NCBI RefSeq assembly: GCF_003173715.1
Contig: NZ_CP029550.1
Location: forward strand, 1,116,001 to 1,180,000
Direction of reading: 5' to 3'
Length of the DNA stretch: 64,000 nucleotides
Source: Methylobacterium durans
GTDB lineage: Bacteria > Pseudomonadota > Alphaproteobacteria > Rhizobiales > Beijerinckiaceae
Both the position numbers and the translations under genes were made by a program. Shown in pieces: positions 27,785-37,016 of this stretch. The notes under the pieces are model-generated. The model saw only the letters and a list, made by a program, of their open reading frames with translations. It was not told where the DNA came from and did not search any database. The stretch's first letter is position 1; every line of letters begins with the position of its first letter.

Positions 27785-29262
27785 TACTACTGTGTCACAA
27801 ACGAGCGATGGCAGCAGGGACATCGGTGAAGGGACAGGACCAGTGCACGCGCCAGTCTCAAGCGCAGGCTCTTGATGGAATCAGGCACGTGACGCTCTGG
27901 CCGGATCGGGGGCGCCGCGGGGTCTGTAACCGGCGGGTAGGACAGGGGTTTGGCGCCTGGTGATCTTCGGTCCTGAGGGGGGAAACCGGCCTCGCTCGGA
28001 GACCAAGAACCCGTACGCCGCGATGCACAAGCTGGCGTGATGATGGAAGCCGCGCCAGCTCCGCCCCTCGTAATGGCCGAGCCCGATCTCCTGCTTCAGC
28101 TCTTGATAGTCCCGCTCGATGCGCCAGCGCAGTTTGGTCTGGCTGACGAGCTCGGCCAGGGACGTCTCGGGCGGCAGGCTCGAGAGCCAATACTTCGTCG
28201 GCGCGGCCTCGCCCTGCGGCCACTCGATCAGGACCCACTCCTCGGCACGAGGCTCGTGTCGCAGCTCATCGCGATGCGCCGGGCGCGCCCGCACCGCCGC
28301 AAAGCGCGACGCCAACATCCCGTTCGGGCCCGCACGCCACCTGACCTGCTGCCAAGCCGCCTCCGGCAGAGACCGGGCCAGCTTCTCGGCCGAGAGCGGC
28401 TTTTGATCGGGGCTGCGCCGCACCCGGGTCGGTGGCCTGCCGCGCCCGCTCCACGCTTTGGGCGGCAAAGGAGCTGTTCCGGGTGGCCACAGGCTGGTCG
28501 AGGAGGAGATGCCGAGACTGTAGCGCAGACCCAACTCCGTCAGGGCCGTGCGGAAGGCTGTGTCGATCCCGTATCCGGCATCGGCCAGCACGAGACCGGG
28601 CGGCACCTGTTCGGCCTGGGCGGCACGGATCTGATCCAGCGCGATCTCCGGCTTGGTCTGGAAGAAGATCGCCTCGGGCACGCCAGCCTTCGTGCGCCGC
28701 TCGGGATCCTGGGCCCAGGCTTCGGGCAGGTAGAGGCGGTAGGCGATCGGCAGGCTGGCCTGCGCGTTGGCCAGCGAGAGCGTCACGGCGACTTGGCAGT
28801 TCTCCTGTTTGCCGATCTGCCCGCAGTATTGCCGCCACACCCCGACCGAGTGCCGGCCCTTCTTGGGAAAGCCCGTGTCATCGACGATCCAGGCCTGGAT
28901 CGGGCCTTGGCTCTCGATCATCGGCAGCACCGCGGCGCGGACCCGGGCCAACAAAGCGGCGTCTGACCAGTCGCCCTTGGCCACGAAATGGTGCAGCGCC
29001 TGATGGGTGGCCTGAACCCGAGCCGGTGCGATCCGGGCCGCCATGGGCTCGATGCTCTTGCGCGCGCCCGGCAAGAGCAGACCGGTGCAGTAAGCCTTCA
29101 GCGGCGCGACCCGATCAGCATGGCCGAGGACGTCCGAGAGGGTGTCGACATAGGCCGCAAAGCGCGGCTGGTCGGCCAACGGAGTGTTCAGGGCATCCAT
29201 GCCGCGCTCCTGCACGAGATCGGATCACCCCTCATACACCCCATTCTTGTGACACAGTAGTA
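27785..29262 (-). mobile_element. IS701-family element, complete
   Basis: Perfect inverted ends TACTACTGTGTCACAA (from 27785) and TTGTGACACAGTAGTA (to 29262) flank the transposase, and both are bordered by the tetranucleotide CTAG (27781-27784 and 29263-29266), the target duplication expected for this family. The element sits directly against the IS5 terminal sequence, so it probably inserted at the tip of that older IS. Exact ends plus an intact transposase suggest recent insertion. Confidence 0.93.
27881..29200 (-). CDS. IS701-family DDE transposase
   Basis: A 439-residue transposase starting MDALNTPLADQPRF with GGAG upstream. It shows the family's catalytic segments QAWIVDDTGFPKKGRHSVG, GLVLADAGYGIDTAFR and, near the C terminus, LRWRIERDYQELKQEIGLGHYEGRSW, which carries the catalytic Glu. 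Length is normal and no frame disruption is seen, so the enzyme should be functional. Confidence 0.94.
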   Translation of the reverse strand: MDALNTPLADQPRFAAYVDTLSDVLGHADRVAPLKAYCTGLLLPGARKSIEPMAARIAPARVQATHQALHHFVAKGDWSDAALLARVRAAVLPMIESQGPIQAWIVDDTGFPKKGRHSVGVWRQYCGQIGKQENCQVAVTLSLANAQASLPIAYRLYLPEAWAQDPERRTKAGVPEAIFFQTKPEIALDQIRAAQAEQVPPGLVLADAGYGIDTAFRTALTELGLRYSLGISSSTSLWPPGTAPLPPKAWSGRGRPPTRVRRSPDQKPLSAEKLARSLPEAAWQQVRWRAGPNGMLASRFAAVRARPAHRDELRHEPRAEEWVLIEWPQGEAAPTKYWLSSLPPETSLAELVSQTKLRWRIERDYQELKQEIGLGHYEGRSWRGFHHHASLCIAAYGFLVSERGRFPPSGPKITRRQTPVLPAGYRPRGAPDPARASRA

Positions 29263-33007: not shown

Positions 33008-34012
33008 CTACTTGGCGAGGAATGTCTTGTTCATGGTGAGAGTGGCGATGACGCCGGCCGGGTCCCATTCGCGAGTGATGGACCCGTCCAGCTGATGGGT
33101 CATCGCCCGGTTCAGCAACTTGCTGCCGTATCCCCCAGGGCCGGTCGGGCGAGTGACGGGCGGCCCGCCTCTTTCCGTCCATGCGATGACCACCACGTCC
33201 TCTTGCTCCGAGGACGACACGTCGAGGGTGCCCGTGGGAACCGAGAGAGCGCCATACTTGAGCGAGTTGGTCGCCAGTTCGTGCACGACCAGCGCCAGTG
33301 TCGTCGCGGCTGCCTCACCTACCCCCATCCTCGGCACCGAGACACGGATGCGTCCGCTGAAGGCACCCATGTCGTCGTAGGGAGCCAGAAGGATCGCGAT
33401 CAGGTCGCCGAGCAAAGCCGCCTTGCCCTCGTTGCCGGGGAGTGGGCGGACAAGGTCGTGCGCGCGTCCGAGCGCTGTGAGCCGTTGGGTGAGCTCGCGA
33501 GCCATGTCGACCGTGGTGGAGGTGGAGCGGGAGGTGATGGCGGTCAGGCCGCTGGCGATGGCGAGCAGGTTCTTGACGCGGTGGCTCATCTCGCCGGCGA
33601 GCAGCTCGTGTCCCTCCTCCGCCTGCTTGCGTCCGGTCACGTCGAGGAAGATCCCGAACATGACCCGTCCGACGATGCCTTGGTCGTCGCCGCGGCCCCG
33701 CGCGGAGATCCACTTCACCAGATCGCCATGCAGGATGCGGAAGTCGATCTCATAATCGCCCAGGATAGCGCGGGTCGCCGCGAAGGCGCCCCGGACGCGG
33801 TCACGGTCGGCTGGATGGATGCGCGAGGACAGGTCCTCGAAGGTGATGGATGCGCTCTTTGGCAGGCCCCAGAGGACGAACGCTCGCTCGTCCATGGTGA
33901 ACGCGTCGTTGTCCACGTTCCACGACCACAGGGCTACTCCCGCCGCGTCGATCGCGAGGCGTAGGTGTCGCTCTCCCCAAGCGGGCGATGACGCAGACTG
34001 GGCTTCTAACAT
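33008..34012 (-). CDS. HWE-family sensor histidine kinase with PAS domain
   Basis: A soluble 334-residue kinase. Residues about 20-130 form a PAS_3-type sensor (LRLAIDAAGVALWSWNVDND ... DVTGRKQAEEGH). The HWE kinase core follows: the H-box GEMSHRVKNLLAIASGL with the phospho-acceptor His, the N-box VVHELATNSLKYGAL, and the WTERGGPPV segment that gives the family its W-E name. No membrane helix, so it senses a cytosolic cue. HWE kinases control general stress and light responses in alphaproteobacteria. No response regulator is adjacent. Its 5' end overlaps an IS66 fragment, which suggests that its original upstream region was replaced. Confidence 0.9.
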   Translation of the reverse strand: MLEAQSASSPAWGERHLRLAIDAAGVALWSWNVDNDAFTMDERAFVLWGLPKSASITFEDLSSRIHPADRDRVRGAFAATRAILGDYEIDFRILHGDLVKWISARGRGDDQGIVGRVMFGIFLDVTGRKQAEEGHELLAGEMSHRVKNLLAIASGLTAITSRSTSTTVDMARELTQRLTALGRAHDLVRPLPGNEGKAALLGDLIAILLAPYDDMGAFSGRIRVSVPRMGVGEAAATTLALVVHELATNSLKYGALSVPTGTLDVSSSEQEDVVVIAWTERGGPPVTRPTGPGGYGSKLLNRAMTHQLDGSITREWDPAGVIATLTMNKTFLAK

Positions 34013-34143
34013 GAGAATTCCATGAACCTCATTCGGCGCACCTTCTCCTGCGTGGTCCAGTGCCGCCGGCGCTGGACGGAGGTGATCACCTCGACGCGCT
34101 CGGCGCGGGGCGGGTCGTTAAAACTCACCATGGGGTCGGTCAT
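34006..34143 (-). pseudogene. IS66-family accessory protein TnpA, N-terminal fragment
   Basis: The 45-codon frame starting at ATG 34143 encodes MVSFNDPPRAERVEVITSVQ followed by RRRHWTTQEKVR, the start of IS66 TnpA proteins, and then breaks into unrelated residues ending FMEFSC. The helix-turn-helix that should follow is missing. The breakpoint lies about 25 bases before the start codon of the histidine kinase. Confidence 0.75.
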
Positions 34144-34167
34144 AGGCACACACTTCCACAAGCGTGA

Positions 34168-34395
34168 GCCCCGGTCCGGTCATTCACGGGGCTACCTCAC
34201 ACAGGCGCTCGCTCGCACCAAGGCCCACCGCTCGAGCGCAAGCTGGAAACGGCCCCTCGCGATCACGGCACCACCTTCCACGTCGGTGCCAACCTCGCCG
34301 CCTTCTGTCAGCGCTGCCACACGTTGCACGACCGATCCGAACATCAGCGGCGACAATGGCGCACGCTGTTTCAGAGGAGGGCTCTCGGCAGTTAA
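34168..34395 (+). pseudogene. Fragment of an HNH-like/CxxCH protein upstream of pqqA
   Basis: The open frame encodes a C-terminal piece with VGANLAAFCQRCHTLHDRSE followed by HQRRQWRTLFQRRALGS, resembling the end of small HNH-type proteins (C-x-x-C-H then LHD). It has no start codon of its own and no upstream half, so it is probably a remnant. A related fragment (FCHRCHMLRDLPDHH) precedes the second, inverted pqqA at 36420-36533. Confidence 0.45.
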
Positions 34396-34572
34396 TTCCG
34401 AGGTTCATACCGACTAGCTCTGGCGTAAAAAGAAATCTAAGGGAAATCTTCGCTCCACAAACATGCGCGCTTGATTTGTTTTTAGGATCGGCGCATACAA
34501 GAAATATAGAGGTGGCGCCGCCACTTCGCTTTCTTATAATCTTCTCATGAAGATAAAACAAGGAGAAACACT

Positions 34573-34662
34573 ATGGCTTGGTCTGCCCCCGTCGTTCAGG
34601 AAGTTTGTGTCGGCATGGAAGTCACCAGCTACGAGTCGGCTGAGATCGACACCTTCCACTAA
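34573..34662 (+). CDS. pqqA: PqqA, precursor peptide of pyrroloquinoline quinone
   Basis: The 29-residue peptide has the family core GMEVTSYESAEIDTFH; Glu16 and Tyr20 occupy the positions that PqqE cross-links to build PQQ in known systems. An AGGAGA lies 7 bases before the ATG, and a strong terminator follows 43 bases after the stop. The gene is too short for routine gene finding. No pqqB, C, D, E or F gene is present in the window, so this is an orphan precursor that would depend on modification enzymes encoded elsewhere. The stretch upstream is A/T-rich (CTTATAATCTTCTCATG), plausible as a promoter region. Confidence 0.92.
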   Translation: MAWSAPVVQEVCVGMEVTSYESAEIDTFH

Positions 34663-34704
34663 GCAGCCACTCGGGCGTTCGCGCTTCACAACTCTGATAC
34701 TTGA

Positions 34705-34727
34705 GAGCCGCCTGAGGGCGGCTTTTC
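34705..34727 (+). terminator. Rho-independent terminator after pqqA
   Basis: A perfect 7-bp stem AGCCGCC/GGCGGCT with a TGAG loop is followed by TTTTCTCG. It lies 43-65 bases after the pqqA stop, so pqqA is transcribed as a short single-gene RNA. Confidence 0.9.
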
Positions 34728-34994
34728 TCGTTTCGACCAGGACGGCCTGCAGAATGGTGAACTGCGCCTAACCCTGTCGACCATGCCTGTGACGCGGCGA
34801 TGCGCGCGAGGCCGAATACGCTCGTGGACAACACGAACCCCTAGGCCCAGTCCTCCCCCGGATTGCGACGGCAGACACCGCGAGTGTGCCTCTCGATCTC
34901 TGCCAGTGCGGCGTCGAGGGAGTGACCTTGACCTGACCGGCTGGCTTTGGACCGGGCTGATTGCGAGGATCAGCCAGGATCGGAGGAGCTGGAA

Positions 34995-35276
34995 ATGAGG
35001 AGAGGACAGAGGCCGAGTGCCGAGCAGGTGGTGCTGACGTTGCGCCAGATCGAGGTGCAGACAGCCCAGGGCAAGAGCATCGCCATTGCCTGCAAAGAGG
35101 CGGGCATCTGCGAGCAGAGCTACTATCGCTGGCGCAAGGAGTACGGCGGCCTGCAGGTCGATCAGGCGCGTCGGATGAAGGATCTGGAGCGTGAGAACGC
35201 CCGCCTGCGGCGCCTTGTGGCGGACCTGTCCCTGGAGAAGCAGGTGCTCAAGGACGTCGCGGCGGGAAACTTGTAG
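34995..35276 (+). CDS. IS3-family transposase OrfA (third type)
   Basis: The 93-residue OrfA starts at ATG 34995 after GGAGGAGCTGGAA. It has a helix-turn-helix (EVQTAQGKSIAIACKEAGIC then EQSYYRWRKEYGG) and a leucine-zipper-like helix (MKDLERENARLRRLVADLSL). Its last codons contain GGGAAAC in phase G-GGA-AAC at 35264-35270, a textbook -1 slippery heptamer just before the stop, so most transposase is expected as an OrfAB fusion. Confidence 0.93.
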   Translation: MRRGQRPSAEQVVLTLRQIEVQTAQGKSIAIACKEAGICEQSYYRWRKEYGGLQVDQARRMKDLERENARLRRLVADLSLEKQVLKDVAAGNL

Positions 35277-36136
35277 CCCCCGAGCGACGCCGGCAGGCGG
35301 TCTCTGGCATCCGGGAGAAGTACGGCCTCTCGGAACGTCACGCCTGCCGGATCGTCGGCCAGCACCGCGGCACGCAGCGCTACGTGCCCACCGTGCTAGC
35401 CGACGAGGATGCGCTGACCCGCGCCATCATCAGCCTGGCGTCCGAGTACGGGCGCTACGGCTACCGCCGTGTCACGGCTCTGCTGCAGGCAGGTGGTTGG
35501 CAGGTGGGCAAGGATCGGGTTCAGCGCATCTGGCGTCGTGAGGGGCTGAAGGTCCCGCACAAGCACCGGCCACGCAGCCGGCTGTGGCTGAACGACGGCT
35601 CCTGCGTGCGGCTGCGGCCGCAGCATCGCAACCACGTCTGGAGCTTCGACTTCGTGCAGGCGCAGACCCACGATGGCCGCAGCTTGCGCATCCTGACGCT
35701 GATCGACGAGCACAGCCGAGCCTGCTTGGCGCTGAAGGTGGCGCGGCGCATCAACAGCCTGGGCGTGATCGAGGCGCTGGCGGAGGCGATGTGCCTGCAC
35801 GGCATCCCGGAGAACGTCCGCTGCGACAATGGCCCTGAGATGGTTGCGAAGGCGCTGCGCAAGTGGGTCGCCCAAGCTGGATCACAGATCCAGTACATCG
35901 CGCCGGGCTCACCGTGGGAGAACGGCTATTGTGAGAGCTTCAACGGCAAGCTGCGCGACGAGTGCCTGCGCCAGGAGATCTTCTACTCGCTCAAAGAGGC
36001 ACAAGCTGTGATCGGGCTTTGGCAAGCCACTTACAACCGCGTCCGGCCGCACTCGTCCTTGGGGTATCGACCGCCCGCGCCCGTCAGCTTCCCGGATCTG
36101 GCCTTCCGCCTACCCATGGCCGCTACCATGCAGTAG
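35264..36136 (+). CDS. IS3-family transposase OrfB part of the -1 frameshift fusion (third type)
   Basis: The frame has no good start codon near its beginning and continues from OrfA by a -1 shift: GKLVAPERRRQAVSGIREKY follows the slip. It contains HTH_21-like residues (YGRYGYRRVTALLQ), the rve domain with DDE residues in VWSFDFVQAQT, VRCDNGPEMV and the Glu in SPWENGYCESFNGKLRDECL, and the usual end YNRVRPHSSLGYRPPAPV. All catalytic residues are present, so the element may be active. An internal ATG at 35684 would give only a truncated protein. Confidence 0.9.
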   Translation, partial: GKLVAPERRRQAVSGIREKYGLSERHACRIVGQHRGTQRYVPTVLADEDALTRAIISLASEYGRYGYRRVTALLQAGGWQVGKDRVQRIWRREGLKVPHKHRPRSRLWLNDGSCVRLRPQHRNHVWSFDFVQAQTHDGRSLRILTLIDEHSRACLALKVARRINSLGVIEALAEAMCLHGIPENVRCDNGPEMVAKALRKWVAQAGSQIQYIAPGSPWENGYCESFNGKLRDECLRQEIFYSLKEAQAVIGLWQATYNRVRPHSSLGYRPPAPVSFPDLAFRLPMAATMQ

Positions 36137-36174
36137 CCTCGCAACTGGCTCGGTCCAAAATGCCGGTCAGGTCA

Positions 36175-36239
36175 GACTCGTAGCTGGTGACTTCCATGCC
36201 GACGCAGACTTCCTGGACGATCGGGGCAGACCAAACCAT
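36175..36239 (-). pseudogene. pqqA: Second pqqA, disrupted by the IS3 element
   Basis: Starting at ATG 36239 with AGGAGAGGTAAT upstream, the frame encodes MVWSAPIVQEVCVGMEVTSY followed by ES, matching the intact pqqA in 20 of 22 positions, including Glu16 and Tyr20. It is then joined to the IS end and reads through DLTGILDRASCEATAW to a stop at 36123. The normal tail AEIDTF is lost. Base differences from the first copy are concentrated at third codon positions, showing that both were under selection as peptides before the disruption. It lies in inverted orientation to copy 1. Confidence 0.9.
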
Positions 36240-36419
36240 ATTACCTCTCCTAAACGATCTTCCTGAGAAGATTATAAAAACTTCAGGCAGCGACACCGCC
36301 GCAATGACTTTTGTATGCGCCCTGTGAGACAATAAAACAAGCCCTGACACTACAGAACTCGTAAGAAATATTATTTTTACCTTCGCCCCGTCCTTGGCTG
36401 CGCCGCCCAAATCAGTCGC

Positions 36420-36533
36420 TCAGCGCTCTCCTTCGGGACAGCGCGGCCCACCGCCGGCGTGATGATCTGGCAGGTCACGCAGCATATGACACCGGTGGCA
36501 GAAAGACGCGAAGTCAGCATTCTTCTTGTTCAT
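36420..36533 (-). CDS. Small CxxCH-containing frame upstream of the disrupted pqqA
   Basis: The 37-codon frame begins MNKKNADFASFCHRCHMLRD and ends PRCPEGER. Its FCHRCHMLRD resembles FCQRCHTLHD before the intact pqqA, so both are probably related pieces of HNH-like proteins. It may instead be a remnant rather than a translated gene. About 180 bp of A/T-rich sequence separate it from the disrupted pqqA and should include that gene's promoter. Confidence 0.35.
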   Translation of the reverse strand: MNKKNADFASFCHRCHMLRDLPDHHAGGGPRCPEGER

Positions 36534-36758
36534 GGTTTCATGATGGTGCGGTCTGTACCCGCCGAGCATGCCGCGCGGTATTACGTTGACTAAGCTCCTG
36601 TCTGACGACACCTCCGCTGAAGACTCATTTACGTCCATCGAAGCTGCTTCAGCAGTATGTTCCATCGTTTTGCTTAGGAATTATATGAACCCTCCGTGGC
36701 ATGAGTGCGTTTCTCTATGCGTACCGAATCGATGGATTCGGCGCCAGGAGTAAACGAC

Positions 36759-37016
36759 ATGCGTATATTTCCAGCTGCACTAATGGCTCTCGCCTTGGCC
36801 ACGGCTGCGCCTGCTCTCGCTCAGAACACGACTGCAAATCCGGGTGCCCCGAGTACGGCGAACCCTCCCACCCACGTGGCTGATCATGACGACAGCGGCA
36901 AGTGGGGGTGGCTCGGTCTACTCGGGCTGATAGGACTTGCAGGGTTGATGCCTCGCAAGGACCGCGTTGCCGCGCGAACCACGTTGGACAATACATCTGG
37001 AGCTGTCAGGCGCTAA
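36759..37016 (+). CDS. WGxxGxxG-type small secreted/membrane protein
   Basis: The 85-residue protein starts at ATG 36759 with AGGAG upstream. A signal peptide (MRIFPAALMALALATAAPAL) is followed by a disordered Asn/Pro/Thr-rich stretch and then a short C-terminal helix WGWLGLLGLIGLAGLMPRKD flanked by basic residues. The Trp-Gly start, Gly-spaced helix and basic end recall WGxxGxxG proteins and the protein-sorting CTERM tails, but no matching processing enzyme is visible here. A terminator follows. Function unknown. Confidence 0.75.
   Translation: MRIFPAALMALALATAAPALAQNTTANPGAPSTANPPTHVADHDDSGKWGWLGLLGLIGLAGLMPRKDRVAARTTLDNTSGAVRR

Follow-up and report, generated by a model that had tools for sequence, protein, structure and literature searches.

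An intact solo pqqA gene of Methylobacterium durans, its IS-truncated inverted twin and the upstream sites that they share

The window studied here, a stretch of 64,000 nucleotides, corresponds to positions 1,116,001-1,180,000 of the single 6.79-Mb contig of the Methylobacterium durans genome (genome G000, contig C1). ORF translation and profile matches revealed an intact solo pqqA gene (copy A) at positions 34573..34662 on the plus strand, whose 29-residue product (MAWSAPVVQEVCVGMEVTSYESAEIDTFH) was matched both by the NCBIfam equivalog model TIGR02107 (35.4 bits, cut-off 20) and by the Pfam PqqA model PF08042 (30.8 bits, cut-off 21.1). The Glu and Tyr residues of PqqA that are linked by PqqE stand in E-x-x-x-Y spacing, and Glu16 and Tyr20 are present in copy A and also in the remaining part of a second gene, copy B. 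Profile matches and the border of an insertion sequence place this truncated pqqA, reduced to its first 65 nt, at positions 36175..36239 on the minus strand; its ORF scored 32.3 bits against the Pfam model (residues 3-20, cut-off 21.1) and 35.5 bits against TIGR02107 (residues 3-22, cut-off 20). These data agree with the initial annotation, in which the first gene had been described as an intact 29-residue PqqA with both cross-linking residues, and both peptides pass the profile search for homology to PqqA. The Glu-Tyr cross-link introduced by PqqE has been reported (PMC9851590), and residues 12-29 of copy A are identical to those of the pqqA gene in the PQQ biosynthesis cluster; cross-linking by PqqE to yield PQQ would be the likeliest fate of the peptide.

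The presence of a second, inverted pqqA cut by an IS3 element was also borne out, with a correction to the point of breakage, which had been placed after residue 22: it falls after nt 65, within codon 22, and Ser22 is completed by a T from the element. Insertion sequences of the IS3 family carry orfA (HTH_Tnp_1) and orfB (rve), have terminal inverted repeats that start with TG and end with CA, and are associated with a short target duplication. The element in the window (34929..36174, plus strand; 1246 bp, with 13-bp terminal inverted repeats) shows the HTH_Tnp_1, rve and TG...CA features of the family, with the orfA frame at 34947-35276 (HTH_Tnp_1 ORF) and orfB at 35384-36136 (rve ORF), both on the plus strand. 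Its borders, drawn from its ends and genomic copies, are firm because three further full-length copies in the genome match the span 34929-36174, the third one (L085) being one base longer. The bases flanking the window element (ACCT / GACT) form no target duplication; this is uninformative, since two of the three other full-length copies (L083 and L084) also have none, and only L085 is flanked by one (TGAT / TGAT). The heptamer GGGAAAC (read as G GGA AAC; 35264-35270), noticed by eye at the end of the orfA frame, is a possible -1 slippery site joining orfA to the orfB frame. About nine short relatives of the element (~415 bp; e.g. G000:C1 6475004-6475418, 985160-985575, 1840832-1841247 and 4888296-4888717) are also present in the genome, consisting of the first 193 and the last ~226 bases with about the same internal junction, and they resemble a family of MITE-like, non-autonomous deletion derivatives.

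At its other border the element meets the 3′ end (28 codons plus stop; 34841..34928, minus strand) of a small hypothetical gene, recognized through a relative in M. oxalidis NBRC 107715 (G021), the congener whose locus is most similar. The front part of copy B and the tail of the small gene are now connected through the IS, an arrangement that fits either an insertion followed by an adjacent deletion or a recombination between IS copies; no undisturbed pre-IS site was found among the relatives compared. Copy B would once have been a second gene of the same type as copy A, from which the IS, together with a loss or rearrangement of the neighbouring DNA, would have removed the last seven codons, the stop codon and the terminator, and the gene would be dead because of the removal of these parts. 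In other respects the interrupted twin is a commonplace pseudogene.

The M. oxalidis locus also bears on which of the two copies is the older resident. In M. oxalidis the relative of the small gene (L044 5142-5390) follows the solo pqqA on the same strand, at a distance of 3.7 kb downstream, and the DNA upstream of the solo gene (L044 1-550) matches window positions 50531-49981; this match falls at a phasin gene and keeps the relative orientation, but is 14 kb away from copy B. Judged from both flanks, copy B appears to occupy the position of the M. oxalidis gene, and copy A to be an additional copy. Despite this positional match, it is copy A, and not copy B, that is closer in sequence to the M. 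oxalidis solo gene (88% over 210 bases for A, 82% over 169 for B). The histidine kinase encoded beside copy A and the one downstream of the M. oxalidis gene share 30% identity over 200 aa and do not look orthologous. The G+C content is 0.59-0.64 beyond 32 kb (32000-64000), as compared with ~0.71 at 1-20 kb, and a further transposase lies at 27881-29215; the drop in G+C and the transposase suggest that the 32000-64000 part of the window is an acquired or plastic stretch. The assignment of the locus to accessory DNA is plausible on this G+C drop and on the alignment with the 48-kb M. oxalidis contig C100, in which only seven short pieces of the window could be aligned. Elsewhere in the genus, a Pfam scan of ten ORFs around the solo gene of G008 revealed a luciferase-like enzyme, a DUF892 protein and a LuxR-type regulator, with no link to PQQ among these ten, and tblastx comparison of the type-iii flanks with the window and M. 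oxalidis gave, among the matches listed, chance-like similarity outside pqqA and none to the window.

Genome-wide searches identified six pqqA matches: copies A and B, a tandem array of three copies (G000:C1 1,389,520-1,389,920) located 0.24 Mb from the A/B pair, and a single copy (at 4,488,538), 3.3 Mb from the pair, that heads pqqB, pqqCD and pqqE. Four intact pqqA genes thus exist besides copy A, three in the array and one in the cluster, and the pqqA-B-CD-E cluster at 4.485-4.488 Mb shows that the PQQ biosynthesis genes are present in the genome without adjoining the solo gene. The reported lack of pqqB-E genes in the window held for pqqE and pqqC, for which genome-wide model searches were carried out; pqqB and pqqD were identified at the cluster only. 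A second pqqC match above cut-off (426 bits; L013, G000:C1:498474-499187) lies far from the pqq cluster. With regard to the array, an inverted repeat (AATATAAGTG-N7-CACTTGTATT, G000:C1:1389442-1389469) overlaps its likely -35 region, and blocks similar to this repeat were seen at the first array gene in other species, among the matches listed. A regulon defined by a shared operator was considered and rejected: the array dyad AATATAAGTG-N7-CACTTGTATTG, allowing up to three mismatches, occurs in the genome at the array only, and it therefore links the array to no other gene.

A single PqqE match above the cut-off of 381 was found in the whole genome (587.6 bits), the next one reaching 45.4 bits. 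Together with the identity to the cluster copy over residues 12-29, this result speaks against the proposal that the extra gene supplies a variant precursor for another modification enzyme. The idea that copy A feeds a different maturase, or has some other peptide role such as lanthanide handling, finds a precedent in the discussion of PMC11317620, where PqqA, in connection with the orphan copies of M. extorquens AM1, is considered as possibly part of an alternative lanthanide uptake system. We nevertheless judge such a role very improbable for copy A: the core of its peptide is that of the cluster copy, no second match comes near the PqqE cut-off, and no maturase was detected among the neighbouring ORFs that were scanned, a part of all.

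The regions upstream of copies A and B show one and the same order of parts, composed of promoter-like hexamers 17 bases apart, a G+C-rich dyad, a second dyad (ATCTTC-N4-GAAGAT), GGAGA and ATG. In copy A, on the plus strand, these correspond to the hexamers TTGATT and CATACA (34471..34499, by eye), dyad 1 (34510..34526, from folds and sequence), dyad 2 (ATCTTCTCATGAAGAT, 34539..34554, from a pattern scan) and the ribosome-binding site GGAGA (34562..34566). In copy B, on the minus strand, dyad 2 (ATCTTCTCAGGAAGAT, pattern scan) lies at 36257..36272, dyad 1 (folds and sequence) at 36286..36302, and the hexamers TTGTTT and CATACA, also recognized by eye and separated by 17 bases, at 36312..36340. 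The terminator ascribed to the solo gene was recovered as a terminator-like hairpin with a T run (34705..34733, plus strand), similar to those in the relatives aligned. Further upstream of both copies, at 34270-34390 (plus strand) and 36440-36530 (minus strand), a stretch possibly encoding FC-x-RCH-like residues was noticed by eye; a BLAST comparison of the copy A flank with the copy B flank did not detect it.

The core of dyad 2 (TCTTCNNNNGAAGA, TCTTC-N4-GAAGA) occurs at two sites in the 6.79-Mb genome, those of copies A and B, counting as two sites a core that matches on both strands; the reversed control pattern gave one site. When the dyad was combined with a ribosome-binding site and ATG, 10 occurrences were obtained in 9 of the 111 genomes of the genus, our own included, for the exact pattern, and none with the control. 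Comparison of coordinates with the pqqA searches showed that all 10 places are pqqA starts. A stricter dyad pattern was found at six places in the genome_contigs set, all in Methylobacterium, in a scan that may omit the window's own records. Eight loci (G021, G063, G086, G004, G008, G003, G033 and G084) were also found independently by DNA similarity. The single solo copy of M. oxalidis shows a comparable order of parts and a terminator (GCCGCC-NNNN-GGCGGC-TTTT), as does a second group formed by G003, G004, G008, G033, G063 and G086, the first four of which are mutually syntenic; in G084 the leader alone was inspected. The dispersed copies of G029 and G006, on the other hand, have no dyads and a different promoter block. 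The control region of the solo gene, found in few of the species searched, is less ordinary than the existence of spare copies.

The upstream dyads could act either as DNA or as RNA. Six leaders folded singly gave z-scores of -0.4 to -2.7 against shuffled sequences, and in folds of the 83-base leader the probability of dyad 2 was at least 0.9 in 8 of 10 sequences. Its low values in copy B (0.14) and in G084 (~0.3) led us to claim no proven RNA structure. RNAalifold predicted both stems from ten sequences with a covariation term of -0.18 kcal/mol, and 2 of 11 pairs were changed on both sides, in rows selected by the dyad and with stem 1 of two groups set in different columns, by which stem 1 is poorly tested; this stem is also weakened in G008 and G086. 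In stem 2, the five inner pairs are invariant, and inspection by eye shows three sequences with A-T and seven with G-C as the outer pair; the invariance of the core is circular because the ten rows were collected with the dyad pattern. The invariant dyad is explained as well by a protein operator as by an RNA hairpin. The search for a known RNA family gave, for positions 34000-36900, one chance-level Rfam match (Mnt IRES, 18.2 bits against a gathering threshold of 100), and no title on a pqqA leader appeared among the matches listed from the open-licence literature.

Silent sites provided a further line of evidence. The initial annotation had taken third-position differences between the copies as proof that both were selected as peptides; this view has only weak backing, the 21 codons compared containing 4 synonymous changes and 2 non-synonymous ones (nominal P = 0.019, assuming equal rates). 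Fourfold sites of pqqB, pqqCD and pqqE differ by 38-45% between the window's genome and G008 and by 21-26% between it and M. oxalidis. At such sites copy A and the G008 solo gene differ at 1 of 13 (P ~0.013 for at most one difference in 13 at a rate of 40%), and the operon copies of pqqA in M. durans and M. oxalidis at 0 of 13; copy B differs from the G008 and M. oxalidis solo genes at 3 of 8 each, approximately the background rate. On these small numbers, the intact pqqA genes seem nearly fixed even at silent sites, which could reflect either codon choice for high expression or a constraint at the RNA level. Codon usage was also recorded at the glutamates: Glu16 (34618-34620 in copy A) is GAA, and Glu21 is GAG, in 90 of 92 pqqA rows each (rows distinct by their flanks, copy B counted twice), the combined count for four genes of this genome (pqqB, pqqCD, pqqE and hemB) is 82 GAG to 8 GAA, and Glu16 at 21 loci of other genera in the order is GAA in 17 and GAG in 4. 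The silent-site conservation, the preference for GAA at Glu16 against the habit of the four genes just named, and the two stem-loops formed in many folds would suit a conserved unit that is itself RNA, the short pqqA transcript with its leader acting also as a regulatory RNA. We regard this as improbable: the covariation term is small, the invariant core of stem 2 fits an operator equally, the silent sites could be due to a choice of codons that favours high expression, and the leader belongs to no Rfam family.

The same comparison bears on whether copy A is a passive relic, that is, a duplicated and redundant pqqA in a plastic, IS-bearing region, nearing loss as copy B did. Copy B is already broken, the surrounding DNA has a reduced G+C content and contains transposases, and the upstream pattern is patchily spread (9 of 111), all of which would be expected of a relic. 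Copy A, however, is intact, its dyads, ribosome-binding site and terminator are common to other species, and its single fourfold difference from the G008 solo gene stands against the far higher divergence of the PQQ enzyme genes of the same two genomes. We consider the relic possible, although rather unlikely.

Spare pqqA genes are normal for the genus. Two or more were found in 58 of 59 sampled genomes, our own included, the remaining one (G050) having one match, and in at least 46 of the 59 two or three copies have starts less than 200 bases apart (by eye, among the matches listed). A DNA query covering positions 34380-34760 matched in all 111 genus genomes, mainly in the coding part among the matches listed. 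Multiple pqqA copies also exist beyond the genus: matches with E of at most 0.001 were obtained in 12 of 81 genomes of an order-level sample (our own included), two of which, G111 and G163, had five copies each. The setting is thus less exceptional than had been implied, and the orphan pqqA is of a known kind, since orphan or distant copies have been described in M. extorquens AM1 and M. oryzae. What is modestly new here is a solo pqqA lineage with its own control region.

In M. extorquens AM1, pqqA2 and pqqA3 are, like copy A, called orphan and proposed as an extra supply of PqqA, and their expression differs between lanthanide sources; these two genes may be of the array type or of the solo type, and in the portions of the two papers drawn upon dyads go unmentioned (PMC11317620, PMC6520949). 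The operon pqqA of this strain was reported to be unneeded for PQQ in studies that did not include the orphan copies, and orphan pqqA expression changes with the Nd source, in a direction that differs between the Results and the Discussion (PMC11317620). The map of transcription starts in M. extorquens DM4, as far as the consulted part of it goes, shows no start site immediately ahead of the pqqA of the operon (PMC9320726). The pqqA of M. oryzae CBMB20 resembles copy A in its distance from the biosynthetic genes, 930 kb from pqqBC/DE (PMC4161386), and M. aquaticum 22A has two pqqA genes, described without positions in the excerpt used, with pqqA1A2 upregulated under methanol and pqqBCDE only under methanol plus calcium (PMC5784242); a solo copy with an inverted, IS-cut twin is not described for either species in the sections consulted (PMC4161386, PMC5784242). 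Outside the genus, multiple pqqA genes are known in Methylovorus sp. MP688 (Ge et al. 2015, as cited in PMC6520949 and PMC11317620), and Hyphomicrobium denitrificans FJNU-6 has several, three of them lying separately (PMC9851590). In the lanthanide-using methylotroph strain RH AL1, three pqqA copies were down-, not upregulated with Nd (PMC10848612), and MP688, FJNU-6 and RH AL1 have three to five pqqA genes per genome, expressed differently (PMC6520949, PMC11317620, PMC9851590, PMC10848612).

On balance, copy A is probably a working gene under separate control, which provides standard PqqA for maturation in trans by the PQQ enzymes of the chromosome. A short RNA carrying this gene alone would begin at the gene's own promoter and end at the terminator behind it, the peptide would be matured by the PqqB-CD-E set encoded at the cluster, and control would be exerted at the dyads upstream of the start, either through an operator or through a hairpin in the leader. 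With a separate transcript and maturation in trans, the supply of precursor could rise without raising the enzymes. This reading draws on the PqqA family match, the one PqqE encoded 3.3 Mb away and the kept order of parts, on the restriction of the dyad-RBS-ATG pattern to pqqA starts and of the dyad core to copies A and B, on the resemblance of the flanks of B to those of the M. oxalidis solo gene, and on the published orphan or distant copies (PMC11317620, PMC6520949, PMC4161386). Direct observation covers the genes themselves, the one PqqE match, the parts common to the two upstream regions and the IS junctions. Against it, the four other intact pqqA genes already supply PqqA, so copy A may be dispensable; the exact pattern is limited to 9 of 111 genomes and the G029 and G006 copies lack the dyads; the bare dyad, when reversed as a control, also gave a genomic site; and the published expression data point in discordant directions (down with Nd in RH AL1, PMC10848612; inconsistent in AM1, PMC11317620). 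The further suggestion that extra pqqA genes could raise PQQ yield is supported in so far as an added supply of precursor is the likeliest role, the availability of PqqA being cited as rate-determining in MP688 (PMC11317620).

A bolder and doubtful proposal is that the solo pqqA genes of the nine Methylobacterium genomes form a distinct lineage in which a dedicated element gates PqqA apart from the PQQ enzymes and the array, this element consisting of the two dyads that separate the promoter from the ribosome-binding site, with dyad 2 unique to copies A and B within the window's genome. The gating might operate through a leader RNA or a one-target repressor reading PQQ, methanol or lanthanide state. 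With regard to the reasons for which methylotrophs maintain multiple pqqA genes, a solo copy that has control sites of its own, common to other species, makes it possible to ask whether cells regulate the supply of the precursor rather than the level of the enzymes.
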